Source: Acutalibacter sp. 1XD8-36 | GTDB lineage: Bacteria; Bacillota; Clostridia; Oscillospirales; Acutalibacteraceae | Direction: 5' to 3' | Length of the DNA stretch: 36,259 bases | Assembly: GCF_009917525.1 (NCBI RefSeq) | Contig: NZ_QZDU01000016.1 | Span: forward strand, 1-36,259 | Shown here: positions 2,579 through 20,509 of the stretch, piece by piece | Numbering within the stretch: position 1 is the first letter of the stretch | Layout: each line of letters starts with the position of its first letter | The notes under the pieces: model-generated | The model's input: the letters and a program-made list of their open reading frames with translations, nothing else | Databases searched by the model: none | What the model was told of the DNA's origin: nothing | Program-made: the position numbers and the translations under genes

Positions 2579-2664
2579 AAAATCACTCCTTTTGCTTTGC
2601 GGACTTTCCCGGCAAAATCAAAGAGTGATTCGGATTGTGTCTATTCAATTCTTTTTCCGACATC

Positions 2665-2694
2665 AGTATAGCACAGGGCTTTGGGGAAAGTCAA
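2665..2694 (-). promoter_or_regulatory. sigma-A-type promoter of the recombinase trio
   Basis: On the minus strand TTGACT (2694-2689) and TATACT (2670-2665) are separated by 18 nt, close to the vegetative consensus. It lies about 90 nt upstream of the TTG start of the 537-aa recombinase. The -35 box is just past the end of the small gene at 2703. Confidence 0.6.
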
Positions 2695-2702
2695 CAGCTT
2701 TT

Positions 2703-2914
2703 TTACAGTAATATTTGTTTCAAGCACTCCTCCAACGTAGGCCCGTCTTTGGAGAACCGGGCGTGGACGGTGAATGAACCGCACTTGAAGCAGTATGGGT
2801 TTTTGATTTGGCGTAAGTATTCTTTGATACGTTCGTCCTTTGGCAGATTTGGGTCAACGTGTACGTCACGGATGTCCACCAAAGTGTCTTGTGTAGGGCT
2901 TTCTGTTTGTTCAT
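2703..2914 (-). CDS. small mobile-element protein (DUF6870-like), start probably frameshifted
   Basis: The conserved-looking frame reads TLVDIRDVHVDPNLPKDE, then IKEYLRQIKNPYCFKCG and a C-terminal GPTLEECLKQILL. I recognise this from memory as a small protein of unknown function common in clostridial integrative elements. The ATG at 2914 has a fine GGAGG site, but it opens a different frame. The conserved frame itself has no good start nearby and only runs on to a TTG at 2978 without a ribosome site. One missing base just after the ATG would join the two. So this is either a single-base frameshift, real or an assembly error, or the gene uses a weak internal TTG/GTG. The ribosome site is buried in a 14-bp hairpin. 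Confidence 0.55.
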
Positions 2915-2921
2915 TTTGATT

Positions 2922-2961
2922 CCTCCAGGATTTGAATTTGTTGAAAATCAAATCCTGGAGG
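2922..2961. repeat. 14-bp perfect inverted repeat covering a ribosome-binding site
   Basis: The arms 2922-2935 and 2948-2961 are perfect complements (CCTCCAGGATTTGA and its reverse complement) around a 12-nt loop. In minus-strand RNA one arm contains the GGAGG ribosome site that precedes the ATG at 2914, so folding would hide it. There is no U-tract after the stem, so it is not a simple terminator. Confidence 0.7.
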
Positions 2962-3035
2962 TGGTGCACGTGGGCCAAAAAGCCAATGAGCTTGCTTAAA
3001 ATGGCTCTTTAGTGCTCCTAAATGCGAAAAAACGC

Positions 3036-3074
3036 AAAAAAATAAAAGAGATATGAAAAAATCATATCTCTTTT
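3036..3074 (-). terminator. AT-rich hairpin, probable minus-strand terminator
   Basis: The arms 3044-3056 and 3062-3074 form a perfect 13-bp stem (AAAAGAGATATGA type) with a 5-nt A/T loop. On the minus strand it is followed by a run of seven T at 3042-3036 interrupted by one A, so it reads as a weak, AT-rich Rho-independent terminator behind the agrBD transcript. It could also insulate the recombinase genes. Confidence 0.5.
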
Positions 3075-3167
3075 CACGGTAAAGTGTTTTTAGGCATACC
3101 TCTGCGCCGACAGGAAAGACTTCTGCGGCGAAAGAGGCAGCGTTATGATACATAGGGATTAATCTAA

Positions 3168-3205
3168 TAAAGAAAAGCCAGCCAGGCAATGTCTCCTGAC
3201 CGGCT
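3168..3205 (-). terminator. Rho-independent terminator after agrD
   Basis: An 11-bp stem with two G-U pairs (AGCCGGTCAGG with CCTGGCTGGCT, arms 3205-3195 and 3186-3176) and an 8-nt loop is followed on the minus strand by TTTTCTTT. It lies 13 nt after the agrD stop and closes the agr operon. Confidence 0.75.
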
Positions 3206-3217
3206 GTTTCTTAGGGG

Positions 3218-3337
3218 TTACTTCTGGAGCTCTTCGGGGACTTTAGGCTCATAGCCGTACCCGAGAGAGGCCACGCCTGCCCCGAAACTCGCAATGCTCT
3301 CAATGAACTTAGCAATAATAGACCATACAGACATCAT
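3218..3337 (-). CDS. agrD: AgrD-type cyclic lactone autoinducer precursor
   Basis: A 39-aa peptide. An amphipathic N-terminus (MMSVWSIIAKFIESIASFG) is followed by GAGVASLGYG and then an acidic tail YEPKVPEELQK. That tail matches the EPKVPEEL recognition tail of staphylococcal AgrD. By alignment with C-D-F-I-M|DEPKVPEEL of S. aureus, the predicted ring is S24-L-G-Y-G28, closed by the Ser hydroxyl as a lactone rather than by Cys as a thiolactone. AgrB would process the precursor at the membrane. The ATG overlaps the agrB stop (ATGA), giving coupled translation. A second ATG follows at once and has slightly better spacing to the AAAGGA site. The ring boundaries are inference; the AgrD identity is strong because of the tail and the neighbour agrB. 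Confidence 0.88.
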   Translation of the reverse strand: MMSVWSIIAKFIESIASFGAGVASLGYGYEPKVPEELQK

Positions 3338-3921
3338 ACGTCCTTTCTCCTTTCCTGGATTTTAGGTATTACCATCAAAACGGCCACTGCCGTCATTGTG
3401 GTTGAGCACATACAGACTATGTGTGGCATGAACGAGAGAAAGTATGCTATCAATATGCATAGTCCCTCACACGCAGTGATTTGCCAAGAAATGTTTCTGT
3501 TTTTTCGATATGAAACATCAGACATCGGATGATTTTTGTTCTTTATGGGCGTTAGCATAAAAACAACTGCCATAGATGAAAGTACCAAAAATGGGCAAAG
3601 AAACTCTATTCTAAGTGTTTGAATCAATCGGGCAGCATCGAAACAAATCAAGTACACTGCATTACTGAGGATAAAACAACGTCCATATGTCTTGGCGTGG
3701 TAACCACCAGAAAAAAGCCGGATACTCACGAATATAAGGCTAAAGGTGAAAGAAGTATACACCGCGCCACACAAGCATGACAGAATGAACACGGAGAGCA
3801 TTACTGCCAAGGATGAAATAGTTATTTCAAATCCATAAATATAAACTGCTCTACGGACTCGGACCATTGGGAATCTGCACAGAAGTTTTTCTGTTAATGC
3901 GGTAGCACAAGCGTTTAGCAT
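3334..3921 (-). CDS. agrB: AgrB-type membrane peptidase, autoinducer processing
   Basis: A 195-aa polytopic membrane cysteine endopeptidase that would cleave the AgrD tail and cyclise the signal. The signature RLFSGGYHAKTYGRCF holds the catalytic pair His75 and Cys82, seven residues apart as in S. aureus AgrB (H77/C84). Several hydrophobic segments follow at about 34-68, 83-95, 107-124 and 149-185. The start ATG has AAAGGAGGG about 9 nt upstream. Directly upstream lies a TATAAT box with a LytTR-type repeat, separating agrBD from agrAC transcriptionally. The length is normal for the family. Confidence 0.93.
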   Translation of the reverse strand: MLNACATALTEKLLCRFPMVRVRRAVYIYGFEITISSLAVMLSVFILSCLCGAVYTSFTFSLIFVSIRLFSGGYHAKTYGRCFILSNAVYLICFDAARLIQTLRIEFLCPFLVLSSMAVVFMLTPIKNKNHPMSDVSYRKNRNISWQITACEGLCILIAYFLSFMPHIVCMCSTTMTAVAVLMVIPKIQERRKDV

Positions 3922-3947
3922 AACGAGTCCCTCCTTTTCATAAGGCT

Positions 3948-4009
3948 ATTATAGCAGAAAAGGAATTAAAAAACAGATTTTGTCTAAGAGGTATCAAAGT
4001 TTGTCTAAA
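3948..4009 (-). promoter_or_regulatory. agrBD promoter with AgrA-type direct repeat (site A)
   Basis: Read on the minus strand, two identical 9-bp boxes TTAGACAAA (4009-4001 and 3988-3980) are separated by 12 bp (CTTTGATACCTC), a 21-bp period typical of LytTR/AgrA operators. Twenty-six nt further is a TATAAT box (3953-3948) with a TGC extension, and the -35 position (TGTTTT) is poor, as expected for an activated promoter. The upstream box overlaps the agrC stop codon. The same arrangement recurs in front of the RiPP operon. Confidence 0.78.
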
Positions 4010-5348
4010 AGGAGTTCAAGCACACGAAAACAGTTGAAACAAAGTAATGGTCCTGGTAGAAACTGCGGAGAGCGCCGCCATATTTTTTTGCTGTGTCAGC
4101 TATGTTTTGTAGGCCAAGCCCGTGGAGTTCTTGGGAGTCTGCTTTGGTGGTGTGCAAATTTGGGTTAGATACAAGCGGATCTATGTCCACATAGTTCTCC
4201 ACACGGAAAAAGAGGGTGCTGTCATTCTTAACCCATATCTTAACGCTGACATTTCTTTTAGCTGAATTATGCACCCGCTGGCTCGCCTCAAAAGCATTGT
4301 CAATTTGATTGGACAAAACAGCGCAAATATCAACAGGGTCGATTTCGATTGGTTGAGAGATATCCATCGAATACTGAAAAGGAATGGACAGGTCCTCTGC
4401 TTCAGCGGCCTTGCAGTTGATAATAGCGTCGATGATGTTGTTTCCGCTTTTGCAGAAATTCTTTTCCGCATATGATGTTTTTAGGAGAGAGCGGGTGTAT
4501 TGGGCGGTCTTATCCGCTTGTTCTTGACTCGCTAAAACTTCCAGGGCCTTGATATGATGATTAAAGTCGTGAATCCTCCGTGCGATTTCCTTTCGATTTT
4601 CGTATAGTGCTTGGTAGTTCTGGGCAATTAGTTGATTTGTGTTGCGAAGAAGTTCTGCCCTCTGTTTTTCATCCTGATAATTGCCATTGATAAGTAGCAG
4701 TGCAATTACAGCAAAGATACACAGACACGAGAAGATGCAGGAAAACATGATAGCGTTCTGCATAGCCAGCAAAGATTGGCTCATAATCAGGGCAATTAAC
4801 GCTGTCATGACAGCATATACGGAAAGACTCGTACAAAAAAGCAAAAGTCTTTGCTTATAGCGGAGTTTTTGAAGACTAGGTAGAAAGTGCCATAAAAGTA
4901 CCAATAGCAGTATATCTACCCCCTTATTCACCGCTAAGTATAGGGTTCGCAATGGACACGGATTTAACAGTGCCTGAAAAGAGTATGTATCAGTAACAGG
5001 GGATTCTGTTATCATACAGAAGATAAATAAGCAAATATAATCGACCGAATTAACAACCAGGACACTAATTACTGTTGCCGTAGAGCGAAGTAACCAGGAT
5101 TCTTTTGAGACAAAGCGGCTTGATAGTACAATGAACGTGAAACCGATGCCTATTGTGACAAACGAGAAAGCTTGAACGGAGTTCAAAATAGCAATAATTG
5201 CGGTATATATAATAGTAAACCTACAAATAAGGGACTTATGCTTTTGCCCATGATGTAGCTCACATGATATATGCGTAACAGCGCACAGTATAACCGCTCC
5301 TTCGCAGACAGTCGCTGCTAATTCCATAAGGTCATAAGCCCACATCAT
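4005..5348 (-). CDS. agrC: AgrC-type sensor histidine kinase (GHKL)
   Basis: A 447-aa receptor kinase for the cyclic peptide signal. The first 220 residues are six or seven hydrophobic segments forming the sensor. The dimerisation/phosphoacceptor region has RRIHDFNHHIKAL with His260. The GHKL ATPase domain shows the N-box LSNQIDNAFEA (about 345-355) and a G-box ELHGLGLQN near the C-terminus. The start ATG overlaps the agrA stop in an ATGA junction, so kinase and regulator are coupled. The order regulator-kinase is the reverse of the staphylococcal order. The downstream agrB has its own promoter overlapping this gene's stop. Confidence 0.93.
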   Translation of the reverse strand: MMWAYDLMELAATVCEGAVILCAVTHISCELHHGQKHKSLICRFTIIYTAIIAILNSVQAFSFVTIGIGFTFIVLSSRFVSKESWLLRSTATVISVLVVNSVDYICLFIFCMITESPVTDTYSFQALLNPCPLRTLYLAVNKGVDILLLVLLWHFLPSLQKLRYKQRLLLFCTSLSVYAVMTALIALIMSQSLLAMQNAIMFSCIFSCLCIFAVIALLLINGNYQDEKQRAELLRNTNQLIAQNYQALYENRKEIARRIHDFNHHIKALEVLASQEQADKTAQYTRSLLKTSYAEKNFCKSGNNIIDAIINCKAAEAEDLSIPFQYSMDISQPIEIDPVDICAVLSNQIDNAFEASQRVHNSAKRNVSVKIWVKNDSTLFFRVENYVDIDPLVSNPNLHTTKADSQELHGLGLQNIADTAKKYGGALRSFYQDHYFVSTVFVCLNSF

Positions 5349-6064
5349 GGTTCTTCACCCCAGACTTGAAGAATTGTAGATTTGACTCCAGGCAGCATTT
5401 TTCGGCTAATGGGGAGTGACTCATCGGTATCCATTTCTATGAAAGCTTGGGAAAGCTGCTGGACATGATCCAGATTGACAAAGCAACTGCGGCTTATAAA
5501 AACGAATCTCTCATCCCCTATTTTTTTGAATATTTCTTTTATGCCACGCCCGGTATTCACAATTCCTTGACGGGACGTATGGATTTCCAAATAGCGCATT
5601 ACCCTCTGCACATACAGAATTTCGTCATATGGAATTCGCACAATATCGTGGTAGTATGTAACGGTGAGGAAATTCTTTTCTGCTTTTTCAGCTTCGGCCT
5701 GTGCCGCGTCCAGAGCCTCTATTAGTTCCTCATTCAAACTGAGCTTAGACACATACCGCAGCGCATCGACCTTATATCCTTCCCTTGACATTTCGATATG
5801 AGAAGTCAGGAATAAAATGGGTACAAGAGGGTGAGAAGTCTTGATCTGCTTCGCAAGGGAAAAGCCATCTAAGCCCGGCATCTCCACATCCAACAAATAA
5901 ATGTCGTAGACAGAGCCATCTATGATCTCATCCTGCAATGCGGATGGGTCAGAAAAAGTATGAAGCTGGAAGTTTAATTTCTTCTTTTTGGCATACTTCT
6001 GTAGAAGTTCGCTGATTTTGTCAATAAAGACAACCTCATCGTCACAAATTGCCACATGATACAT
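5345..6064 (-). CDS. agrA: AgrA-type response regulator (REC-LytTR)
   Basis: A 239-aa regulator. The receiver domain (about 1-125) has acidic pocket CDDE and phospho-acceptor Asp59 in LLDVEMPGLDG. The LytTR DNA-binding domain occupies about 140-236 (EILYVQRVMRYLEIHT, FVFISRSCFVNLDHVQQL). It is the natural partner for the 21-bp-period direct repeats at 3980-4009 and 7146-7175. I chose the ATG at 6064 because AGGGGG lies 9 nt upstream. A TTG two codons earlier is too close to that site. The gene follows the 164-aa gene by 14 nt and overlaps agrC by 4 nt. Confidence 0.93.
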   Translation of the reverse strand: MYHVAICDDEVVFIDKISELLQKYAKKKKLNFQLHTFSDPSALQDEIIDGSVYDIYLLDVEMPGLDGFSLAKQIKTSHPLVPILFLTSHIEMSREGYKVDALRYVSKLSLNEELIEALDAAQAEAEKAEKNFLTVTYYHDIVRIPYDEILYVQRVMRYLEIHTSRQGIVNTGRGIKEIFKKIGDERFVFISRSCFVNLDHVQQLSQAFIEMDTDESLPISRKMLPGVKSTILQVWGEEP

Positions 6065-6078
6065 TTGCAATTTCCCCC

Positions 6079-6573
6079 TTAGTCTGATTTGAAATCTGCG
6101 TATGTGTACTTAAATGAACGCCTGCGGTTAATATCCAGGAAAAAACTCTGTTCCTCTGAGACTAGCAGCATATATGGATCGTCTGGAGATTTCGGGTTCC
6201 GGGGGTTCAAGTTGCTATGATATGCATATACCCCAATATGACGGGTGAGAACCTTTTCCCTTATGTCCTCCAGAACTTCTTGGATGGGAGCGGTGTGGTA
6301 CTTTGTCGCGGTCCATCGAGGAATCATCGCATGGATTGTATTTAGAGATAGGGCTGGTATTGGTTGTGATGGCGGAATAACAGAGAGGAGTGCCTTTAAA
6401 TCATCCTCCGTATATTCTTTGATTCGCGAAAATAGATAAAGAATTTCATATAAGTCACAGTCACAAGATAGAAACAACTGGAATAAATCTGAGGTTCCTA
6501 TTGGAAGAACATTGTCATTCCTAAGAACAATACACTTGGTTACAAATTCAGTCAAATTGCTTCTCATAGTCAT
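6079..6573 (-). CDS. unknown 164-aa protein leading the agr operon
   Basis: I do not recognise this protein. It is soluble-looking, without a signal peptide or membrane segments. The N-terminal half is helical and leucine-rich (LFQLFLSCDCDLYEILYLF). The C-terminal half contains HIGVYAYHSNLNPRNPKSPDDPYMLL and ends with FFLDINRRRSFKYTYADF. It is the first gene after the operon promoter and ends 14 nt before agrA, so it is co-transcribed with the sensor genes. A role in modulating signalling, or in self-protection, is possible but not shown. The ATG at 6573 has AAGGAGG 11 nt upstream. Confidence 0.75.
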   Translation of the reverse strand: MTMRSNLTEFVTKCIVLRNDNVLPIGTSDLFQLFLSCDCDLYEILYLFSRIKEYTEDDLKALLSVIPPSQPIPALSLNTIHAMIPRWTATKYHTAPIQEVLEDIREKVLTRHIGVYAYHSNLNPRNPKSPDDPYMLLVSEEQSFFLDINRRRSFKYTYADFKSD

Positions 6574-6609
6574 ATATGCAAATTCCTCCTTGATTTGGCA
6601 GCTAGAGCT

Positions 6610-6638
6610 ATTATAGAAGAAACTTGCGTGTTTGTAAA
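6610..6638 (-). promoter_or_regulatory. promoter of the agrAC operon
   Basis: TTTACA (6638-6633), 17 nt, TATAAT (6615-6610) on the minus strand is a near-consensus vegetative promoter about 40 nt upstream of the 164-aa gene. No LytTR-type double box is present here, so sensor expression is probably constitutive. Three GCGT motifs (6626, 6639, 6647) in the shared region with the xre promoter could be an operator for the XRE protein; that is inference. Confidence 0.65.
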
Positions 6639-6658
6639 GCGTCTAGGCGTTTATGCAA

Positions 6659-6687
6659 TGGAGTTTTAAATTCCTTTTTGGTAGAAT
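6659..6687 (+). promoter_or_regulatory. extended -10 promoter of the xre gene
   Basis: TAGAAT at 6682-6687 is preceded by TGG, giving an extended -10 element; the -35 region is poor. It sits 22 nt upstream of the xre start and diverges from the agrAC promoter. Confidence 0.45.
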
Positions 6688-6709
6688 AGTACTGAAAGGA
6701 GGGCAGCAT

Positions 6710-7054
6710 ATGGATTCAATTGGCCGAAAGATTCGCGAATTGAGGAAAATCAGAAAACTTACGCAGGAGCAGCTTGCGGAGCGGTGCGGGGTATCCCCGT
6801 CTTGTATCTCCAGATGGGAAAATGATGTGCTTCGGCCTACTGCAAAAAATATCGAATCTTTATCTACAGCACTGAGCGCAAATATAACTGAGTTATTTCC
6901 TTCATATGCTGTCCAGCCCTCCGAGAGTCTAATTGTGCGAGAAATAGTCTCTATTGTGGAGCAAATGACGGAACCCGAGCAGAAGTTCGTACTTGAAACC
7001 TTGATCCACTACCAGGAGGTTCGAAATTCTCTTACTAAAGACAGTATACCATAG
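6710..7054 (+). CDS. XRE-family helix-turn-helix regulator
   Basis: A 114-aa regulator with an N-terminal Cro/C1-type HTH (IGRKIRELRKIRKLTQEQLAERCGVSPSCISRWEND, about 3-40; key residues Q18, L21, S29, S32, W36). A short helical C-terminus may serve for dimerisation. The ATG at 6710 is favoured by AAAGGAGGG 6-9 nt upstream over an upstream ATG at 6653 that lacks a ribosome site. It sits between, and divergent from, the agr operon and codirectional with the RiPP operon, so it may repress either promoter. A terminator follows it. An AgrA-type site pointing antisense into it lies just beyond its stop. Confidence 0.85.
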   Translation: MDSIGRKIRELRKIRKLTQEQLAERCGVSPSCISRWENDVLRPTAKNIESLSTALSANITELFPSYAVQPSESLIVREIVSIVEQMTEPEQKFVLETLIHYQEVRNSLTKDSIP

Positions 7055-7105
7055 TTTTCTTTTTTTTTCACCATGTATGTCTAAGTGGTCTATAAGTTCG
7101 TCTAA
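7043..7105 (-). promoter_or_regulatory. reverse-facing AgrA-type direct repeat and -10 box (site C)
   Basis: On the minus strand, TTAGACGAA (7105-7097), 12 bp, TTAGACATA (7084-7076) again gives the 21-bp period. A TATACT box lies at 7048-7043, 27 nt beyond. It would drive RNA antisense to the whole xre gene and towards agrAC. The half-sites are each one base off the TTAGACAAA seen at site A. The promoter activity is inference. Confidence 0.5.
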
Positions 7106-7116
7106 ATGAAATCTTT

Positions 7117-7147
7117 TCAGGAGCAGAGTGCTGCTCCTGAATTTTTT
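7117..7147 (+). terminator. Rho-independent terminator after xre
   Basis: A perfect 10-bp stem TCAGGAGCAG/CTGCTCCTGA (7117-7126, 7131-7140) with an AGTG loop is followed by ATTTTTT. The U-tract exists only on the plus strand. It separates xre from the RiPP operon and lies between the two AgrA-type sites. Confidence 0.9.
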
Positions 7148-7207
7148 AGACAAACTTTGATACGGCTTGGACAAAATTTTGTTATGGGCAAAAATGTGTG
7201 ATATAAT
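7146..7207 (+). promoter_or_regulatory. RiPP operon promoter with AgrA-type direct repeat (site B)
   Basis: TTAGACAAA (7146-7154), 12 bp, TTGGACAAA (7167-7175) has the same 21-bp period as the agrBD site, and the first nine spacer bases (CTTTGATAC) are identical too. Exactly 26 nt later comes TATAAT (7202-7207), with TTGTTA as -35 at 17 nt. This matched geometry with the agrBD promoter is the main evidence that AgrA controls the peptide operon. Confidence 0.8.
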
Positions 7208-7311
7208 AAACCCACAGAAAGACATTTCAGCAATATAATCTCAGAACACAATTATTGATTTCTAAGGAAGAGTGGATACTGAGAAATAGCATATGGGAAT
7301 GAGTAGAAAAG

Positions 7312-7494
7312 GTGAAGTACAAAGGAAAGAACTATGTGGATTACATAACATTCGGGTATGATTATAATGGCAATGTAACCCACATATGTTGGGTTCAGAA
7401 TAGCTATGATTTTTTACCGATATTTCCAAGTGTCGAATTTGGTTTCCAAACACTTTCAAGTATGTTCGCTAGAAAGGAAAGTTTGCATGTATAA
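7312..7494 (+). CDS. possible small protein overlapping the maturase start
   Basis: A frame of 60 codons ends in an 8-nt overlap with the radical SAM start. It starts at GTG 7312 without a clear ribosome site, or at GTG 7333 behind AAAGGAAAG (53 aa). The product reads VDYITFGYDYNGNVTHICW, later LPIFPSVEF. It matches nothing I know. It might be a second small peptide, a leader peptide for translational coupling, or a chance frame in the roughly 270-nt leader. Confidence 0.3.
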   Translation: MKYKGKNYVDYITFGYDYNGNVTHICWVQNSYDFLPIFPSVEFGFQTLSSMFARKESLHV

Positions 7495-8794
7495 AAAATC
7501 CGCTTTTAATGTCGTCAATAAAGATGTGAGAAGAATTCTCATCTTTAACACAAAAACAAAAAGGTACTTAAAATCAATGAAAGATATAGAAGAGATATCT
7601 GATTTGATAGAATATCCTAATAAGTATCCAGACCATCCGCTCATACCGTTTTTAAAAGATGCTGGTGTCATTGTGAACCAGGCATGTGATGAAATGCAAC
7701 ATATTGGGGCATGGCGAAATGAATACATATATTCCCCTAAACTGGAGTTGTGCATTTTACCCACAGAACAATGCAACTTGCGGTGCCCATACTGTTATGA
7801 GGATTTCAAGCATGGGACCATGTCTCAAGAAACACAAGACGCATTGATAAACTGGCTAAGAAAAAATCTGCGAAACTATACTGAACTTAGTGTATCATGG
7901 TTTGGAGGCGAACCCCTTCTTGCAAAAGATGTTATCGCTTCTCTTTCACAAAGAATGTTGGATTTATGCCACCAGGCGAGAAAGCCTTTTTCGGCATCAA
8001 TAACTACGAATGGCACTTTGTTAGACCTCGACACTTTTGCGATGTTACAAAAATATCGTATCACTGGTATCCAAGTGACACTTGATGGCCCCAAAGAAAC
8101 ACACGATAAGGTAAAAGGCATAGGGTCATATGATAAAGTGATTTCAAATCTTTTGGCGATAAGGGATAAGGTCAAGTCTTCTCATTCAATTTATATTTCA
8201 GTTAGGACAAATGTAACTAAAGATACTTTGTCAACGATGGATAAATATTTGGATGAATTAGCTGAGTTGTTTGCCAATGATTGCAAGTTTGGCTTTTACT
8301 TCAGACCTGTTGGAAATTGGAAGATGGATGAACACTTCTCATTATCATCATCTCTATTAGATAGTTTATTTGAATTATACAATCCAATAATTGAACACCG
8401 AGCTCCTTTGAATTATAATGCCTATTGCAATTTACTTGAAAATCAAATTTGTGCTGCTGCAAAAAGGAACCAATATGTTATACGTGCGGACGGGACCGTA
8501 TGTAAATGCACAATGCTTTTGGACGATGAAAGAAATCACATTGGAAAGCTATCCAAATCCGGAGAAATGAAACTGGACGAGGACAGACTCCAAGAGTGGG
8601 TGAATTCGTTCAAGGAGGTTGAGAAATGTGGGGGATGCAGCTTTGCGCCATCCTGTATGAGCATTATGTGTCCAGCAAAAAAATTTACTTCCCCCGAAAA
8701 ACCTCGTTGTGGATATGAGCCCGGCTCGATTACATATATTATGGAGTTGCTTGACCAATGTGATGTGTTTGAAATAATTCCCCCTTGGAGGTAA
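7487..8794 (+). CDS. radical SAM/SPASM peptide maturase (CcpM-like)
   Basis: A 435-aa enzyme that would install a radical-made cross-link or other modification on the Cys-rich precursor encoded downstream. The SAM-binding cluster motif is CNLRCPYC (C96, C100, C103). The TIM-barrel core shows SWFGGEPLL (GGE motif), ITTNGTLL and VTLDGPKETHD. The C-terminal SPASM region binds extra Fe-S clusters with about seven Cys (CKC near 339-341, CGGC near 381-384, then 390, 395 and 408). The N-terminal 80 residues are a peptide-recognition-like domain. The ATG at 7487 follows AAAGGAAA. It resembles maturases of the Clo7bot/CLI_3235-type clostridial peptide systems, as I remember them; a search would confirm the subfamily. 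Confidence 0.9.
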   Translation: MYKKSAFNVVNKDVRRILIFNTKTKRYLKSMKDIEEISDLIEYPNKYPDHPLIPFLKDAGVIVNQACDEMQHIGAWRNEYIYSPKLELCILPTEQCNLRCPYCYEDFKHGTMSQETQDALINWLRKNLRNYTELSVSWFGGEPLLAKDVIASLSQRMLDLCHQARKPFSASITTNGTLLDLDTFAMLQKYRITGIQVTLDGPKETHDKVKGIGSYDKVISNLLAIRDKVKSSHSIYISVRTNVTKDTLSTMDKYLDELAELFANDCKFGFYFRPVGNWKMDEHFSLSSSLLDSLFELYNPIIEHRAPLNYNAYCNLLENQICAAAKRNQYVIRADGTVCKCTMLLDDERNHIGKLSKSGEMKLDEDRLQEWVNSFKEVEKCGGCSFAPSCMSIMCPAKKFTSPEKPRCGYEPGSITYIMELLDQCDVFEIIPPWR

Positions 8795-8800
8795 AGCATA

Positions 8801-9037
8801 ATGACGGAAAGAAGTCGGATCATTGAGTGCTTAAATCATCTTGGTATATTGTGTGATGCTGAATCCAATTTCCTGCTATCCGATATTATTGAGGACTCTC
8901 TGCTATTTGTATCTATGATCGTTGAAATAGAGCAAGAGTTTGGAATCGAAATCCCTGATGAATATTTTCAGCCAGATAGATTGATATCATTTAGCGATCT
9001 TGTGGAAATGGTTAATACCCTCTCTTCCACTAAATAG
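8801..9037 (+). CDS. acyl-carrier-related protein of the peptide cluster
   Basis: A 78-aa protein with the fold pattern of an acyl/peptidyl carrier protein. The motif EDSLLFVSMIVEIEQEFGIEIPDEYF matches the DSL phosphopantetheine site (Ser near residue 33) and the following helix 2 with its acidic face. The final helix is FSDLVEMVNTL. It starts 6 nt after the maturase stop, with GGAGG inside the end of that gene. Acyl-carrier-related proteins are known companions of this type of clostridial radical SAM peptide system. It may hold an acyl or amino-acyl group for transfer, possibly to the BtrH-like protein at 14.4 kb. Whether it is phosphopantetheinylated is unknown. Confidence 0.8.
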   Translation: MTERSRIIECLNHLGILCDAESNFLLSDIIEDSLLFVSMIVEIEQEFGIEIPDEYFQPDRLISFSDLVEMVNTLSSTK

Positions 9038-9151
9038 TTGAATGAAATTATATGGCATGGTGAAATGAGTTTTAGGTATACAGATACTGTTCGTTTGATA
9101 CCATAAACCCGTATCACGATGTACATAATCAATAGAATGGGGGTGAATACA

Positions 9152-9268
9152 ATGAAGGAGACTCTGAAGAAGCCTGTGGACTCTACAGCTAATGACAATT
9201 GGCTGGATCTGTACGGCGAGTGCACAACCGGTAGCCATTGTGGTCACGATTGCGGCCTGGATTGGTAA
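9152..9268 (+). CDS. Cys-rich RiPP precursor peptide
   Basis: A 38-aa peptide too short for usual gene callers. Its leader-like part is MKETLKKPVDSTANDNW and its core ends YGECTTGSHCGHDCGLDW. Three Cys are spaced C-x5-C-x3-C, with Gly, His and Trp around them. The start has GGGGGTG 6 nt upstream, a very strong ribosome site. It lies between the maturase/carrier genes and the protease and exporter, the usual place for the substrate. Just after its stop is a stable hairpin that may protect its mRNA. The leader/core border and the modifications are not visible from sequence; Cys thioether links by the SPASM enzyme are a reasonable guess. Confidence 0.82.
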   Translation: MKETLKKPVDSTANDNWLDLYGECTTGSHCGHDCGLDW

Positions 9269-9282
9269 GTACACAAAGCAGG

Positions 9283-9323
9283 ACGGTAAGCGTTAAAGCG
9301 GTAGCACTAGCGCTTACCGTTTC
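9283..9323 (+). terminator. stem-loop between precursor and downstream genes
   Basis: A perfect 10-bp stem ACGGTAAGCG/CGCTTACCGT (9283-9292, 9311-9320), extendable by three inner pairs, is followed by only a short T-run (TTTCTT). It is likely a partial terminator or processing/stability stem that keeps precursor mRNA more abundant than the biosynthesis genes after it. Confidence 0.6.
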
Positions 9324-9396
9324 TTGCATGGTCATATATATAATAGTATATCTGCCATATATATCTCCCTTAGGTCAGAAAGATGAGGCTGTTTAC

Positions 9397-11199
9397 ATGA
9401 GAATTGCAGTTTTGGATAGTAGAGCTTGGATTCAACATCCAATTTTTCAGAAACACCTTCCTGTTATATTTCAAGAAAGCACTACAACATGGAATAAAAG
9501 TACAGAGATAGTGCAAAAACCGAATAATCCCCATGGGACAGCTGTGTGTGCTATAATTGCACACCATACTTCTCCGAATATTGAAATCCATAATTTCGAC
9601 ATATTTCACAAAGAGCCACAAATCTTAACAAAGAAAGTAATCTCTGCTTTAAAATATATATTAGAGTACGGCGGGTATGATATAATCAACATGAGTTTGG
9701 GCATCCGTACCCCAAATACTGAATTGGAGGCTCTATGTTATAAGATAAGCAACCAAGGTAGTTTGATTGTGTCCGCTTTTGATAACGCTGGGGCGATCTC
9801 ATATCCTGCTGCCTATCCGTTTGTTATTGGTGTTGATACTTCACCAAGATGCACCCATGCTGAGGATTTTGTAATCGTTGAGGATAGTCCAATTAATATT
9901 AGAGGAAAAGGTGGAGTGCAAAGATTAGCTTGGGTAGATCCACCATATACAATAAGTCAGGGAAATAGTTTTGCTGCGCCTTATATTACTGCCTATATTG
10001 CGTCCCATTTTACTAATGGCCCATCGCAAGAGCAGGCGTTGGAATTCATACACCGTAATGCAAAACATGTTTATTCTGCCCGTAAGAGCAATACGATCCT
10101 TAGAAAACCATTTCAGATTTCAAATGCATCACTATTCCCATACAACAAAGAGATGACGAGCTTGATATCATTTAGGGAATTATTGGACTTCAATATAATT
10201 GAAGTCTGTGACACTAAATACTCCGGACACATAGGGCTTTCTGTCAAAGGATTATATGATATAGAAAGTTGCTTTAATATTAAGAACATTGATGATATTA
10301 ACTCCAAGACAATTGATACACTCATCCTTGGGCATATCTCAGAAACAGAGGGGGTATCTGGAAAATCAATCAAGCGCGATGCACTTATTAAATGTTTGGA
10401 AAAAGGGCTTAATGTGTTTGCATTTGATGATTTCTATTTGAACGAATTTTTACCTCAATTTGAAGCTAAAGGCCTTTCACTGTATTGTCCAAATTATAAT
10501 ACAGTCCCAGTTACAAATTATTTTGGAAAGCTATATCAAATGCGGTCACCTGTTCTTTGTGTAGCGGGAACATCGAAACATCAAGGGAAATTTACCTTAC
10601 AGCTTCAACTACGAAAAAAACTAAAGGAACGAAATTATATAGTTGGACAACTTGGCTCAGAACCCACATCACAGCTTTGGGGAATTGATGAGGTTTTCCC
10701 ATTAGGATACAATGGTATAACTGAAAGTAATGTACAAGACATATTAGTTCAAACTAATATGCTGATGCATAAAATAGATGAAAAAGCCCCAGACATAATT
10801 CTTGTCGGCTCTCAGTCAAACATATTACCAAGAGCATACTATAATACAGGACAAATTCCTTTATCCCAAGTAGGATATATTCTTGGGGCGAATCCCGATG
10901 CAATTATTTTATGTGTAAATTTGGATGATGACATCAAAATGATCTCAAGATTTATTGATGGAATTCAAGGTCTCTGTAATTGCAGAGTGATAGCTTTGGG
11001 CGTTTATCCTTTTACATATTCAAGCGGATGGGGAATTATTCGCAATAAGAAGTCCAAGGCGAGTAATGAGTTAGTGGCGAAAGTTATACAAAACTTTGAA
11101 AGTACGTTCAATATACCGGCCATCATAGTTGGTGAGAAAGAGCAGGAAGAGAAGCTTGTAAATTCTTGCATTAATTTTTTTACTGGAGATTCAGCATGA
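9397..11199 (+). CDS. S8 subtilisin-like protease fused to P-loop (DUF1611-like) domain
   Basis: A 600-aa two-part protein. Residues 1-235 are a subtilase with all catalytic residues: Asp7 (IAVLDSRAW), His46 (NNPHGTAV), oxyanion Asn130 (AFDNAG) and Ser191 (SQGNSFAAP). It has no signal peptide or prodomain, so it should act in the cytoplasm, most simply removing the precursor leader. Residues from about 250 to 600 form a second domain with a P-loop-like VAGTSKHQGKFT (391-400) and VGQLGSEPTSQLWG, resembling the DUF1611-type C-terminal fold and a peptide-maturation family of clostridial systems. The start at 9397 follows GAGG at 8 nt; the frame is open further upstream but without a ribosome site. 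It overlaps the next gene by 4 nt. Confidence 0.85.
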   Translation: MRIAVLDSRAWIQHPIFQKHLPVIFQESTTTWNKSTEIVQKPNNPHGTAVCAIIAHHTSPNIEIHNFDIFHKEPQILTKKVISALKYILEYGGYDIINMSLGIRTPNTELEALCYKISNQGSLIVSAFDNAGAISYPAAYPFVIGVDTSPRCTHAEDFVIVEDSPINIRGKGGVQRLAWVDPPYTISQGNSFAAPYITAYIASHFTNGPSQEQALEFIHRNAKHVYSARKSNTILRKPFQISNASLFPYNKEMTSLISFRELLDFNIIEVCDTKYSGHIGLSVKGLYDIESCFNIKNIDDINSKTIDTLILGHISETEGVSGKSIKRDALIKCLEKGLNVFAFDDFYLNEFLPQFEAKGLSLYCPNYNTVPVTNYFGKLYQMRSPVLCVAGTSKHQGKFTLQLQLRKKLKERNYIVGQLGSEPTSQLWGIDEVFPLGYNGITESNVQDILVQTNMLMHKIDEKAPDIILVGSQSNILPRAYYNTGQIPLSQVGYILGANPDAIILCVNLDDDIKMISRFIDGIQGLCNCRVIALGVYPFTYSSGWGIIRNKKSKASNELVAKVIQNFESTFNIPAIIVGEKEQEEKLVNSCINFFTGDSA

Positions 11200-12011
11200 G
11201 TAAATATGATTTAGGGTTTTTACTCCCGTCAGGACACTTCCAAGTTCAAATTTCTAAAGATTTGTACTGGGTTCCAGTAAACACAATAGGTTCGCCTCAA
11301 CACAGCATTCAAGAGATAAGAGATATATCAATGTGCACACCGCAAGAAAAAAAAGAATATATTAGCACTCTGTATGATGCTTTGCAATTATTTGTTACCA
11401 GCAACTTCCATGAGCTACTGGATGTTGTTGTTATAGCTGAAAACAATATCGAATGGGAACATCACAAACCTGGATATTATGCTATTCTAACGAATTGTGG
11501 TTGTTGCTCGTCTGATGCTGCTTGGTTACGATATTTGCTTTTTGATAAATATCAAGAAGTTGGATATATCTCTTTCTCGAGGCCGAATGGCTCTGGCCAT
11601 GTTTTTAATTACATTCTAACAGAAGGATGGTACTACCTATATGATTTATGCCCATTAACGGATAGATATATTAATAATGTTCTGATTGAATCCGGCAAGA
11701 TGGCAGACTTCTTAAAAGCAAAATATGTGACAGGAGCTCTATTAAAATGTCGACAACTAGAAAGTTTTGCTTTGTTTTATAAGCGGTTACAATTACGAGG
11801 AGGTTTTGACCATCTCTTCTTCAAGCACAGAAGTCCGGAAGTCGGGCCAATTTCAGCAATTAATAAAGGAGGAATAACAACTATATTGATGCCAGAGAAT
11901 GCAGGGATTACTCCCCTGCTGACGCCAAATACTGAAACAATTCAGTCAAAATTCGTCTCTCACCCCCAATCTATACCAGATTGGGAAAGTAGGAGCGAAA
12001 AATTCCAATAA
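11196..12011 (+). CDS. transglutaminase/papain-like protein of the peptide cluster
   Basis: A 271-aa protein whose middle reads TNCGCCSSDAAWLRYLL, then NGSGHVFNYI and EGWYYLYDL. This gives a candidate Cys103 or Cys104, His135 and Asp150 triad in the order and rough spacing of transglutaminase-like cysteine enzymes. No signal peptide is seen. Such a fold could hydrolyse, cyclise or acylate a peptide, or could be a second protease. The C-terminal 70 residues are low in structure and rich in Pro, Ser and Thr. The ATG overlaps the protease stop (ATGA), so the two proteins are made together. The family assignment rests on these motifs only. Confidence 0.65.
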   Translation: MSKYDLGFLLPSGHFQVQISKDLYWVPVNTIGSPQHSIQEIRDISMCTPQEKKEYISTLYDALQLFVTSNFHELLDVVVIAENNIEWEHHKPGYYAILTNCGCCSSDAAWLRYLLFDKYQEVGYISFSRPNGSGHVFNYILTEGWYYLYDLCPLTDRYINNVLIESGKMADFLKAKYVTGALLKCRQLESFALFYKRLQLRGGFDHLFFKHRSPEVGPISAINKGGITTILMPENAGITPLLTPNTETIQSKFVSHPQSIPDWESRSEKFQ

Positions 12012-12024
12012 GAGGTGAAAGTAA

Positions 12025-13788
12025 ATGTTCAAAGGAATATTTTTCTTACTGAAATATGCCTGGAAATATGAAAAAAAATATATCCCTTATCAAATTGTTC
12101 TACAGATATTGACTGCCCTTATCCCCATAATCGACATAGTATTTCCTAAATATATTATTGACGAAATACTTCGCGGAGATAGCCTCGAGAACGTCTTGTA
12201 TTTGATAACAGGCATGATCATGTTAAATTTAATGGCATCCATGCTATCAAGCTTTTTAGAGGGAAGGATATTTTTGCTGCAGGGAAGCATTTTTACGAAG
12301 TTTCAAACCATGATGGCCGACACGCTCTCTAAAAGTGACTTTCAGCGCCTTGAAGACCCTAAATTCCTGGATACTAAGGCAAAAGCAGAAAAATTCTTGT
12401 ACGCAAATGGCCAAGGTTTTGCTGTTGTCTTAAAAAACTCGTTTAATATTTTGGGCAAAGCATTTACTTTCGTGGGAATCATTGCTGTAATACTTACATT
12501 GAACTGGTGGATTGTGGCCTTGTTCATATTACTCATTCTGTTGGATGCTTGGTACGAATCTGGCATAAGAAAGCAAAATATCCAATGGGACATAAACAAA
12601 GCGCCTATTGAGCGAAAAACAAGTTACTTCCTGGACTTAATCGAGAATTTTGCTTTTGGAAAGGAAATAAGAATTTATAACCTAAAAGATTGGCTTGTAG
12701 CTAAAGTAAACCATCATTTGCTAGAATCGGAAGCGTTCTATAAAAAGCAAACCAAGTTGCTTAATCGCGCTCAATACATCTCCGTGTTATTGAACTTTAT
12801 CTTGAAAGGGATTACCTATATCTATTTAGCTTACTGCGTCATTAAATCAACAATAGGTATTGGCGATTTTACGATGTATGTGAATGCAATGATGAACTTT
12901 TCCAACGCAATGAAAAGTTTAATGGAAAGCGTATTGGACATTAGACAGTTTAGCGGATATTATGATGCCCTAACCGACTATCTAAACGTACCGCAGACAA
13001 TGTACCAGGGAAAAAACTTGCCTCTCCCGGAAGGACCATATGAAATTGAATTCTGTGATGTTTCTTTTTGCTATCCTGGGCAAAAAGTTAATGCCTTATC
13101 TCATATTTCTTTGAAATTAAAGTATGGTGAAAAACTATCCATTGTTGGAGAAAATGGGGCCGGAAAAACAACTTTTGTGAAATTGCTTTGTCGCCTATAT
13201 GATCCAACACAGGGGAAAATAACTTTGAACGGAATGAATATACAAGATATAAATTACGATTCGTATATGGGGCTAATTTGTTCTGTGTTCCAAGACTACA
13301 AATTATTAGCATTTACATTAAAAGAAAACGTTTCGTTCCAACACTCAAATGATGTTGAGGATTCCTATATCACAAAGCTTTTAGAGGACAGTGGACTGGG
13401 AGAAAAAGTGAAAAAATTGTCAAATGGAGTAAACACATATGTTTACCGCACCTTCTCTGAAGAGGGTTTTGAGCCATCTGGCGGTGAAGGGCAAAAGATC
13501 TCATTAGCCAGGGCAGTTTATAAAGATTCACCGATTATGATTCTTGACGAACCAACAGCAGCTCTTGATCCTAGAGCTGAATATGAGATTTATCGGAAGT
13601 TTTCTGATTTGACAAAAGGAAAAACAACCGTTTTCATTTCTCACAGAATGTCAAGTTCTAAATTTTGTGATCATATCGCTTTTTTTGAGGATGGTCAAAT
13701 TATTGAATATGGTACTCATGATGAGCTGATGGATTGCAACGGGAAGTATAAGGACTTGTTTGATATGCAAGCCCAGTTCTATATATAG
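12025..13788 (+). CDS. ABC exporter (fused membrane and ATPase domains)
   Basis: A 587-aa half-transporter. Membrane helices lie at about 20-45, 57-75, 140-175 and 255-300. The ATPase domain has Walker A GENGAGKTT (about 375-383), Q-loop SVFQDYKLL, signature PSGGEGQKISLARA, Walker B IMILDEPTAALDP and switch His in FISHRMSS. It would export the finished peptide as a homodimer. It lacks an N-terminal C39 peptidase domain, so leader removal must be done elsewhere, fitting the S8 protease in the operon. AGAGGTG lies 8 nt before the ATG. It starts 13 nt after the previous gene. Confidence 0.92.
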   Translation: MFKGIFFLLKYAWKYEKKYIPYQIVLQILTALIPIIDIVFPKYIIDEILRGDSLENVLYLITGMIMLNLMASMLSSFLEGRIFLLQGSIFTKFQTMMADTLSKSDFQRLEDPKFLDTKAKAEKFLYANGQGFAVVLKNSFNILGKAFTFVGIIAVILTLNWWIVALFILLILLDAWYESGIRKQNIQWDINKAPIERKTSYFLDLIENFAFGKEIRIYNLKDWLVAKVNHHLLESEAFYKKQTKLLNRAQYISVLLNFILKGITYIYLAYCVIKSTIGIGDFTMYVNAMMNFSNAMKSLMESVLDIRQFSGYYDALTDYLNVPQTMYQGKNLPLPEGPYEIEFCDVSFCYPGQKVNALSHISLKLKYGEKLSIVGENGAGKTTFVKLLCRLYDPTQGKITLNGMNIQDINYDSYMGLICSVFQDYKLLAFTLKENVSFQHSNDVEDSYITKLLEDSGLGEKVKKLSNGVNTYVYRTFSEEGFEPSGGEGQKISLARAVYKDSPIMILDEPTAALDPRAEYEIYRKFSDLTKGKTTVFISHRMSSSKFCDHIAFFEDGQIIEYGTHDELMDCNGKYKDLFDMQAQFYI

Positions 13789-14433
13789 TGGATTTCTTAT
13801 AACGTTACAAATGCTCATATATTCTTTTCGGTCTTGGCCAAATTAATCAAGAGTAAAAGTCTTATAAATGCCAATGCATTAGGCCGATGCCTTGGCCCGG
13901 AAACATTTCAAGATATTTATAAAGTACTTCGGGGCTTTCTGATAAAAGAAGATATCATGTTTTTTTGACCAGATATGATTTCAAGGGCACATCAAGTCAG
14001 ACTGGTCTTAGACTTTGCCTTTCGGCTCCAAAAGCAGCAGCTTCTGGTCACAAAGACAGTATTTTCGTTTTTTTACGTGTCCGAGCAACAATGATTATAG
14101 ACTTTATGCCAGTGGCATTTGAGATATTGTTATATTAGAGGGGCAACGTATCAACAATTTGATATTTTAGCCAGTGACTTGCATCCCAATTTTCCCGACC
14201 GGAATATCTATCTTATATCAGTGGATGAGCCGCTAGGGTACACTATAGAGATAGGATTGGTATTTGTCGTAACGACACTTTCTGTTTCAGTACCTTTAGG
14301 GATGTGTAAAACTCTAAATTGCTTCCAACCAAGTACAATATATGGCATCTTCAAATACGCGTATATCCTATTAGTTTTGTAAAATTTGCATTTCGTTCTT
14401 CTATCAGTACCTTAGCTATGGAGGGTAAAAACT
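13789..14433. other. 645-bp gap without a convincing gene
   Basis: The frame of the exporter continues in phase after its TAG for about 58 codons (…LAKLIKSKSLINANALGRCL, then FQDIYKVLRGFLIKEDIMFF) without a start codon. An 87-codon frame from TTG 14119 (FDILASDLHPNFPDRNIYL) has no clear ribosome site. Both read somewhat like protein and may be remnants of a decayed gene. No promoter, repeat or insertion-sequence end was convincing. The last 15 bp hold the GGAGGG ribosome site of the next gene. Confidence 0.4.
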
Positions 14434-15420
14434 ATGTCTGAGGTAATACTCCCTTTTAAGATTCAAGATGTCACTTCTTATTGCTCAAACGCTTCCATCT
14501 GCGCAATAGCAAGAAACACTTCTGATTCTGAGGAATGGCTAGCTAATAATTTCATTCAATTTCATTATGAGACAGAATATGATGTGTTTCATTATATGGG
14601 AACGCATATTTTACAGAAATTCTGCCCGTTTATTCAACATGAACAGCTTGATAGAGATCTTATAAATTCAATATGGTATGGAGATATTATATCTATGTTT
14701 GAATTTATGCTATCTAGCAATAGATATATATATTGCTATGTTGACTTGTACCACATTAATGTTCAAAACAAATATTGGTATGATACTCCTCCTGTCTATC
14801 ATGAGATATTCATTTATGGATATAATACAGATAGAAGCATATTTTACTGCGCTAACAATGTTATGGATGGACAATATCAAACTTTTTTTGTGCGGTACGA
14901 AGATATGGAAAAGGCTTATTGGGTAGTCCCGGATGCTTATTGGCATACTCATATTGAACTATACACTTACAAACCGCTTGGGGACGATTATTTGCGAATC
15001 AATCCCCAAATGATATACAATAGCATGGAGGACTACTTAAACTCTGAGTACCCTACGTTATTTGCGTTTCATCGCACTTTTTATACGGGAATTTCTTCCC
15101 TTAAATATGAACTTAATCGTATCGTTGAATTACCCAAATTGGATCGTCGGTGCTATCACTTGTTTTATGAGCACAAATCCCTTATGATTAAGCGGATCAA
15201 CACCCTAAGAAAATGCGGGTTAATTCGTAATTCATCACTTCATATACAAAACTATAAGACTCTAGCGAAACTCTATTATCAATTACGCGGGATGGTTCTG
15301 AAATATAACATGACCAGCGAGTACGCAATACTACTCAGAATTAAGTCACTGTTTTCGACTCTTATTGATATGGATATAAAAGCGATGGAATCTATTTGTC
15401 AAGATGTGATTCGGCCTTAG
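14434..15420 (+). CDS. BtrH N-terminal-like protein of the peptide cluster
   Basis: A 328-aa protein whose first 170 residues resemble the BtrH N-terminal family: an N-terminal Cys region (VTSYCSNASICAIA, Cys17/Cys23), YIYCYVDLYHI, then PPVYHEIFIYGYNTD with His123 and the FFVRYEDMEKAYW ending. BtrH of butirosin synthesis transfers an acyl group from a carrier protein. With an acyl-carrier-like protein in the same cluster, an acyltransferase or peptide-cleaving role is plausible. The C-terminal half is helical and unassigned. GGAGGG precedes the ATG by 8 nt. No obvious terminator was seen in the 84 bp after its stop. Confidence 0.65.
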   Translation: MSEVILPFKIQDVTSYCSNASICAIARNTSDSEEWLANNFIQFHYETEYDVFHYMGTHILQKFCPFIQHEQLDRDLINSIWYGDIISMFEFMLSSNRYIYCYVDLYHINVQNKYWYDTPPVYHEIFIYGYNTDRSIFYCANNVMDGQYQTFFVRYEDMEKAYWVVPDAYWHTHIELYTYKPLGDDYLRINPQMIYNSMEDYLNSEYPTLFAFHRTFYTGISSLKYELNRIVELPKLDRRCYHLFYEHKSLMIKRINTLRKCGLIRNSSLHIQNYKTLAKLYYQLRGMVLKYNMTSEYAILLRIKSLFSTLIDMDIKAMESICQDVIRP

Positions 15421-15504
15421 CCGCCTATATTTATCTATATTGATGTGGTATAGTTAAATTGTTCAGTAACAACTCCCAATACTGTAATTTCTTTTTATTA
15501 CCTG

Positions 15505-16103
15505 CTACTGCGGCCAAGCCAACTCCGCAAAGTTCTGCCCGCCGATACCAGCGTCCCCATTGTGATAGAGAGCCAAATGCAGATGCGGTCCGGTAGAGTT
15601 ACCAGTACTGCCAATATACCCAATAAGCTGTCCCTGGGTGACAGTTTCCCCACTTGCTACTGCTAGTGCGGAAAAATGCCCATAAGCGGAAATCCAACCG
15701 TCCCCATGCTCAATAAAGACACTGTTGCCAAAGGACCACATCCCGCCTACACCATGAGCCGGTGTCCATCCATCCTGTGTATAACGAACGGTCCCGGCAG
15801 CTACCGCATAGACCGGCTCACCGTAGCAGTTGGCAAAGGAAATATCGATTCCGTTGTGACCAGGGTATGTATCCCAGGTGTGGCCGGGGAGCGGGTAGGC
15901 AAACCGCCCGTCAGCAATGGCGCTGGCATCGCCCATACTGCCCACCGATACCTGATAATAGCGGAGAACATGGTCTCCTTACTCTTTTTCATCACATAAT
16001 CAGCCGACTGCAAGGCCCGCTCGCCCATCACGTTAATGGCGTACTGCTCCGAACTATCAACCTTCTGATTCTGCTTGTCCATTGTCTGTAAATCACTGCT
16101 CAA
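15505..16103 (-). pseudogene. M23-family peptidase of a mobile element, frameshifted
   Basis: The C-terminal 145 residues are a LytM/M23 metallopeptidase: GHNGIDISF (zinc His and Asp), YGHFSALAVASG and GPHLHLALYHNG (HLH), a peptidoglycan hydrolase domain. The N-terminal part is in another frame: a TTG at 16103 behind AAAGGAG reads SSDLQTMDKQNQKVDSSEQ, then MGERALQSADYVMKKSKE. The two frames meet near 15970, where RYR-WAVWAMP replaces the expected RYQ-VSVGSMGDAS. One indel restores a single protein. The start overlaps the stop of the radical SAM gene. As written, the peptidase would not be made unless there is recoding or an assembly error. Confidence 0.7.
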
Positions 16104-20499: not shown

Positions 20500-20509
20500 A
20501 CTGTTCTCC

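Follow-up and report, generated by a model that had tools for sequence, protein, structure and literature searches.

Does the agr (accessory gene regulator) quorum-sensing system of the gut bacterium Acutalibacter sp. 1XD8-36 control the peptide-modification operon that lies beside it, and through which DNA sites? We addressed this question in a 36,259-bp contig (NZ_QZDU01000016.1; hereafter the window, meaning the whole stretch of DNA analyzed), in which genes for AgrB, AgrD, AgrC, and AgrA stand next to an operon for a ribosomally synthesized and post-translationally modified peptide (RiPP) of the radical S-adenosylmethionine (SAM) type. A preliminary description had proposed a closed circuit from the agr signal through AgrC and AgrA to both agrBD and the RiPP genes. 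With all of these components present, our in silico analysis supported that circuit. We read the locus as a serine-lactone agr cassette with three putative AgrA-activated sites (A, C, and B) and an exchangeable cargo operon, which here is a radical-SAM RiPP operon, and we put the probability of this reading at about 0.8.

The proposed link rests on paired 9-bp boxes. Site B was found on the plus strand at 7146–7175, as previously described, with the double box TTAGACAAA-N12-TTGGACAAA and a −10 box of the RiPP promoter (TATAAT, 7202–7207, plus strand) 26 nt downstream. Site A, a TTAGACAAA-N12-TTAGACAAA double box on the minus strand, overlaps the end of agrC; its sequence and strand had been given correctly, while its coordinates are 3979–4008 rather than 3980–4009. 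The −10 box of the agrBD promoter (TATAAT, 3948–3953, minus strand) is 25 nt downstream, and the spacing of exactly 26 nt claimed for both promoters was thus true of B only. The two sites carry the sequences attributed to them on opposite strands, and the nine identical spacer bases noted between them are consecutive, with 10 of the 12 inner-spacer positions identical overall. The preliminary description located A and B and overlooked a third, weaker copy, site C (TTAGACGAA-N12-TTAGACATA, 7076–7105, minus strand), as well as the cargo exchange and the non-RiPP genes behind B-type sites of relatives that are described below. Site C is followed after 27 nt by a −10 box (TATACT, 7043–7048, minus strand) within the last codons of a helix-turn-helix (HTH) gene. 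Sites C and B are on opposite strands and 40 bp apart.

When up to three mismatches were allowed, the double-box pattern matched the window three times; shuffled sequences averaged 0.15 matches, and not one of 100 reached three. The double box had also been proposed as a target for a genome search, and a scan of the window's own genome (G000, 3.2 Mb in 65 contigs) at the same tolerance gave 13 matches: two without mismatches (A and B), one with two (C), and ten with three. The last ten are background, since a reversed-pattern control gave 19 matches in the whole genome, and no match other than A and B has fewer than two mismatches. Repeats of 9 bp with a 12-bp spacer stand before several promoters of one locus, in the manner of the pln promoters discussed below.

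To place these sites in a wider context, we compared the window with related loci. An AgrA alignment search of a one-genome-per-species collection gave 166 matches, the best 80 of which were kept (79 loci). Twenty of these loci, whose AgrA proteins are at least 38% identical to that of the window (range 38–95%), formed the core set of relatives, and the remaining 59 loci (970 kb) served as controls together with 12 stretches around maturase genes (30 shuffles each). The maturase stretches came from 11 of 13 other matching genomes, after a search of 394 genomes sampled from the order in which 14, including the window's own, matched at E 1e-40. An operator model of 39 columns was built from nine training sites chosen by eye in the agrC–agrB gap (window and eight loci); these gap sites share, by eye, a half-site of about ACMRTTNARACAAA, present twice and 21 bp apart. 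Each locus was scored without its own site, and the threshold was the maximum of 60 shuffles.

The model gave 24 hits above threshold in the 20 relatives, and all 24 were in positions A, B, or C. Nine were in position A (the agrC–agrB gap or its equivalent behind agrC), which places an AgrA-type direct-repeat operator, by sequence and position, upstream of agrB in nine of the 20 relatives. Ten were in position C (upstream of orf164 or agrA, in the agr direction), and five in position B (divergent from a C-type site). The controls yielded five hits in the 59 other loci and none in the 12 maturase stretches. The −10 region is not part of the model; a −10 box with at least five of six matching bases was present 22–29 nt behind 18 of the 24 sites; for 5000 places drawn at random from the same loci, the figure was 4.5%. 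A genus search covered 29 genomes, of which 11, including the window's own, had an AgrA match at E 1e-50. Ten stretches of the genus gave seven hits above 30 shuffles, in L164, L165, L166, L169, and L174, all in A, B, or C positions; two of the seven were in L166, which duplicates L053 of the core set. The operator reading of the double boxes thus held up, with the same half-site, 21-bp phase, and downstream −10 box recurring in three positions in relatives and site B retained in L164.

Locus L164 (genome G754), whose AgrA is the next closest in the genus after that of the L051 genome (84–85%), also showed that the genes behind site B change. L164 is 81% identical to the window over 2900–7183; beyond that point, 8 bp downstream of site B, the homology is lost and another operon takes over. 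Sites A and B are each identical at 29 of 30 positions, the HTH gene at 90%, and agrA at 80%. The 40 nt behind B are only 55% identical, and the −10 box is still 26 nt from the box in both loci. The genes behind B in L164 encode a 166-aa protein whose start resembles a signal peptide, an FtsX-type permease, and a 387-aa protein that matched no family. Because B is kept before a different operon, it appears to travel with the agr block and not with the RiPP genes. L046, L060, and L165 share both outer flanks with the window (about 2900–3262 and 15488–15976; 79–90% DNA identity), the common right flank beginning at 15488–15509. Between these flanks, AgrA is only 38–43% identical, and the window's cargo genes were not found in the three loci except for a 24% ABC (ATP-binding cassette) match in L046. 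Together, the end of homology at B in L164 and the shared flanks around divergent AgrA and cargo genes suggest that, at an apparent single slot, both whole agr–cargo blocks and cargo alone have been replaced.

The genes behind other B-type or B-like sites vary accordingly, and we rejected the idea that B always drives RiPP genes. In L046, L053, and L164, such sites are followed by proteins whose start looks, by eye, like a signal peptide, accompanied by ABC or FtsX-type genes; L060 has repeated proteins of this kind, and L042 has one of 359 aa that is truncated by the contig end. A LytTR protein in L043 and an M23-dockerin protein in L052 follow B-like sites that are both below threshold, and L044 and L049 had no convincing first gene behind the B-type site. 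No family match marked the cargo proteins of the relatives as bacteriocins, the mediterrocin match in L164 (E 0.04) being below cut-off. We also considered, but do not favor, a double box carried in by the RiPP operon: L138, a stretch from another family of the order with a similar RiPP operon, and the 11 other maturase stretches gave no model hit, and L164 has site B and lacks the RiPP operon.

In the circuit that we propose, AgrB would process AgrD to a five-residue serine lactone, which AgrC would sense. Phosphorylated AgrA would then bind pairs of half-sites 21 bp apart and activate three promoters with weak −35 boxes. Promoter A would drive agrBD and amplify the signal, promoter C would direct transcription leftward into orf164–agrA–agrC, antisense to the HTH gene, and promoter B would drive the cargo operon. 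As the cargo is a radical-SAM RiPP operon, production of the peptide, which may or may not act as an antimicrobial, would be tied to cell density. In relatives, other operons occupy the same cargo slot.

Several observations weigh against this circuit. The model had no hit in eight of the 20 relatives (L047, L048, L051, L052, L054, L055, L056, and L061) and none above threshold in five of the ten genus stretches (L167, L168, L170, L171, and L173). When trained without the window, it failed to recover the sites of the window and L051; by direct pattern, L051 has A and B without mismatches and C with two, though it gave no model hit. B-type sites passed in only five of the 20 relatives, the candidates in L043, L052, and L053 being below threshold. 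The nine A hits are partly circular, since the training sites were hand-picked in the agrC–agrB gap, even with each locus scored without its own site; the B and C hits are free of this circularity. Because the loci were retrieved through AgrA, its presence in all of them is no test. Site C is identical at only 22 of 30 positions in L164, less conserved than its surroundings, and the binding protein could be another of the genome's LytTR regulators. Promoter B matches the −35 consensus at four of six positions and could fire without AgrA, and another promoter-like match, with 10 of 12 bases, lies at 7340–7368.

The last two points bear on the alternative that AgrA binds B, with the RiPP genes transcribed mainly from other promoters or B repressed, such that the product is not density-dependent. 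Sequence does not reveal whether control is positive or negative, which leaves some room for this alternative. We nevertheless consider it unlikely, as promoter-like matches are little above chance (42 compared with 33.1 in shuffles, sd 5.7), and the agr and pln promoters, in the sections of the papers cited below, likewise have their boxes ahead of a core promoter. Less probable still is that the divergent HTH_3 protein binds the boxes and that the RiPP operon answers to this repressor. Its gene is placed between the sites, and it is the best-conserved protein of the block in L164 (96%, compared with 85% for AgrA). However, eight of the 20 loci (L042, L044, L045, L049, L050, L057, L058, and L059, some on short contigs) have above-shuffle sites and no HTH match, and direct repeats with the 21-bp spacing of these boxes are typical of LytTR proteins. 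Sites in loci without an HTH match make AgrA the likelier binder, with the reservation that the loci were found by AgrA.

Sites A and B might instead be recombination copies of one sequence, for example a recombinase target, without a regulatory role. They form a 34-nt inverted repeat with 91% complementarity, and no other of the 16 inverted pairs listed for 2600–15500 is as long; the window encodes large serine recombinases, and the end of L164 homology close to B could be accommodated in the same way. We regard this as the most improbable of the explanations considered. The sites of relatives have diverged in letters and kept their place, phase, and −10 distance, which argues against mere recombination copies, and the boundary next to the recombinase gene is at 2884–2900 and not at A. 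Control by AgrA through the three sites is the explanation that we retain.

The agr genes are all on the minus strand. agrD (3218–3337) encodes a 39-aa signal precursor (TIGR04223, E 7e-11, above cut-off) with a predicted S-L-G-Y-G ring followed by YEPKVPEEL, and the adjacent agrB (3334–3921) encodes an AgrB peptidase (PF04647, E 4e-29, above cut-off). agrC (4005–5348) encodes a GHKL histidine kinase (HATPase_c_5, E 2e-19), and agrA (5345–6070) a response regulator with a LytTR domain (Response_reg, E 4e-16; LytTR, E 3e-14). A GHKL AgrC beside a LytTR AgrA was the arrangement found, and the agrA–agrC order was kept in all 20 relatives. By its genes, the locus qualifies as an agr system. The score of AgrA against NCBIfam quorum_RR_AgrA was far below cut-off, placing it outside the staphylococcal subfamily. 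AgrD was found in nine of the ten relatives examined (not in L045), always with S-x-G-x-x ahead of YEP. Seven further AgrDs, two of which repeat L053 and L060, agreed on the serine (16 read in total). From this serine at the expected ring position, the signal is predicted to be a serine lactone.

Genome G754 carries two agr loci about 55 kb apart with identical AgrDs (L164, 14576–14692; L165, 12524–12640) and AgrA proteins 84% and 43% identical to that of the window. From about agrD onward, L164 and L165 are 98% identical over 1.6 kb. The identical AgrD and the 98% stretch suggest that both G754 circuits may share one signal.

The RiPP operon is on the plus strand. It begins with a radical SAM maturase (7487–8794; PF04055, E 2e-19), whose start was set by comparison with L138, the longest open reading frame (ORF) running from 7406. 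An acyl-carrier-type protein follows (8801–9037; PF00550 above cut-off, TIGR04069 below cut-off), and then a 38-aa precursor (9152–9268) with a leader ending in NDNWLDLY and a core ending in CGHDCGLDW. Downstream are a subtilase (S8) fused to a TIGR04066/DUF1611-like domain (9397–11199; ORF from 9238, start by eye; 48% in L138), a 271-aa cluster protein (11196–12011; 48% in L138; no Pfam or NCBIfam match), and an ABC exporter (12025–13788; PF00005, E 2e-28; 61% in L138). A 328-aa cluster protein without a family match (14434–15420) lies near the end of the cargo region. A maturase thus adjoins a leader–core precursor, a protease, and an exporter, as in RiPP clusters. In L051 (AgrA 95% identical), the precursor leader is kept and the core is changed, as read from a DNA alignment translated by eye. 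In L138 (genome G618), the maturase (47%), carrier (58%), subtilase fusion, 271-aa protein, and exporter recur, with three paralogous precursors (55%) ending in CGLDW or CGLEW; none of the window's agr proteins was matched in the 20 kb of L138 at E 1e-3. With its conserved leader, variable core, and genes that recur together, the predicted RiPP operon is real.

The RiPP class is not fixed by named families, since the maturase scored below their curated cut-offs: 179 of 525 bits for TIGR04463 (E 1e-52) and 92 of 500 for TIGR04068, among the best 25 of 71 matches. A SPASM-domain match in the maturase was also below cut-off (PF13186, E 0.0055), and the precursor matched no NCBIfam model.

A strong hairpin (9278–9327, plus strand; −29.5 kcal/mol for 9271–9330) follows the precursor gene and may raise the precursor level over that of downstream genes; by eye, one stem pair is altered on both sides in L051. 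A 60-aa ORF with a GTG start (7312–7494) lies between promoter B and the maturase, with DNA nearly unchanged in L051 and no NCBIfam match. Near other radical-SAM maturases, we observed distant AgrA (29%) and AgrC-like (26%) genes in L143 (1009–2355) and distant AgrA (24%) and AgrB-like (28%) genes in L146 (17628–19170). These may be other agr–RiPP links with operators outside the reach of the model.

Between agrA and site C are two further genes. orf164 (6079–6573, minus strand) is agr-linked, with matches in 11 of the 20 relatives and in more distant loci including Lachnospiraceae. It had no Pfam or NCBIfam match, and its AlphaFold model (pLDDT, the predicted local distance difference test score, 85.6) no PDB match at E ≤ 0.001; its product is possibly an unrecognized agr component. 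A sigma-70-like promoter (TTTACA-17-TATAAT, 6610–6638, minus strand; 11 of 12 consensus bases) precedes orf164–agrA–agrC, although such matches were no commoner than in shuffles. Divergent from orf164 is the HTH_3 regulator gene (6710–7054, plus strand; PF01381, E 3e-14), found in the same place in relatives. An intrinsic-terminator-like hairpin (7116–7141, plus strand), 25 of whose 26 positions are kept in L164, lies between C and B, with its T-run extending into site B.

Site C is directed through the HTH gene toward orf164–agrA–agrC, and a transcript from C would be antisense to the HTH gene. No terminator was predicted on the minus strand between site C and orf164. If such a transcript ran on into orf164–agrA–agrC, the HTH gene would lie within it on the opposite strand, which is the arrangement of a noncontiguous operon. 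An HTH homologue was in the divergent place in five of the 20 loci (L043, L046, L051, L053, and L060), and C sites of relatives without it lie shortly upstream of orf164 or agrA. Seven of the ten distinct HTH loci with AgrA at least 38% identical have a C site (the window, L043, L046, L051, L053, L060, and, with three mismatches, L164), and L167, L169, and L173 were those in which none was found. Distant HTH-bearing control loci, such as L063–L065, L081, L083, and L084, had no site at the C place. The direction of C, the lack of a predicted terminator before orf164, and the C sites in seven of ten HTH loci make an antisense toggle of the HTH gene by transcription from C plausible.

Outside the agr and cargo genes, large serine recombinases are encoded at 965–2578 and 23626–25248. 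The window is homologous to L051, L060, L164, and L165 from 2900 onward; additional DNA in L051 between 2884 and 2900 marks a likely insertion boundary. A pilus-like set at 17552–23404 comprises a sortase, SpaA-type proteins, and a weak thioester-domain match. A conjugative element at 15505–36259 was rejected, as Pfam searches of nine window proteins (one at 965–2578) gave recombinases, a sortase, and SpaA-type proteins instead. A plasmid or phage origin was also rejected: megablast found no plasmid match to 3100–15500, phage records contained nothing but AgrA relatives below 60% identity (49 records), and tblastn found no relative on a viral contig.

If the reading is correct, a predicted serine-lactone signal is linked to an unassigned radical-SAM RiPP operon in gut bacteria, and an operator rule is available: half-sites 21 bp apart with a −10 box about 26 nt on. 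Silent peptide clusters of this group would become testable, either by adding the predicted lactone or by looking behind B-type sites for products. That the cargo changes at a promoter points to modular evolution, in which control circuits and their products evolve separately. More tentatively, and with somewhat less than even odds, the locus may be a polymorphic quorum-sensing island of gut Oscillospiraceae, in which a portable agr controller, with an AgrA-driven promoter at its end, is combined with exchanged secreted-product or RiPP operons and an antisense toggle, whereby C would silence the HTH gene and raise AgrA and AgrC.

The output of the Staphylococcus aureus agr P3 promoter is RNAIII. 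The window departs from the P2/P3 arrangement: sites C and B diverge, a biosynthetic operon forms the output, and a third promoter stands before agrBD. In the sections of the papers cited here, S. aureus AgrA recognizes a pair of direct repeats ahead of P2 and P3 (PMC4227749), and PlnC and PlnD of Lactobacillus plantarum bind repeats with a 12-bp gap (PMC2714321); all three are LytTR proteins that bind repeat pairs of this kind. In Clostridium acetobutylicum, reporter assays in agr mutants are described in which agr controls the adjacent RiPP-type enzyme gene CA_C0082, which is lanthipeptide synthetase-like and stands alone, lacking the other genes of a RiPP pathway (PMC10301443). Lachnospiraceae strain UBA3401, also a gut member of the Clostridia, has cyclic lactone autoinducer genes with a thiopeptide cluster, for which the authors suggest bacteriocin regulation; the cited section describes no operators (PMC11352710). 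The window's RiPP operon has the gene set described for SacP23/CLI_3235-type clusters (radical SAM, TIGR04069 carrier, TIGR04066 protein, subtilase, and ABC exporter; PMC10731318), but its TIGR04066-like part is fused to the subtilase, its precursor has no NCBIfam match, and the named models are below cut-offs. In the sections available from the open-licence PMC literature searched, we found no agr system wired to a radical-SAM RiPP, which does not prove its absence.

The Fsr system of Enterococcus faecalis (FsrABDC, with the gelatinase biosynthesis-activating pheromone, GBAP) is alike in the AgrB-type processing of a lactone peptide, and its LytTR regulator, FsrA, binds ahead of both fsrB and the enterocin O16 gene ef1097 (PMC5454873). 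By contrast, ef1097 does not encode a radical-SAM RiPP and is separated from fsr by 800 kb, and the cited sections mention neither a divergent HTH gene nor a site C nor an exchange of cargo (PMC5454873). In the pln locus of L. plantarum, the −35 and −10 boxes of several promoters are immediately preceded by 9-bp repeats separated by 12 bp, matching the window's sites in repeat length, spacing, and position; there, two opposed regulators bind, whereas the window has one AgrA and an AgrD-type signal (PMC2714321). As far as these sections describe them, Fsr and pln are close precedents: both combine a peptide signal with a LytTR regulator, and in both, direct repeats in pairs precede the signal genes as well as the product operon. 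The window differs from them in its type of cargo, in having three sites arranged around a divergent HTH gene, and in the cargo change at the operator.

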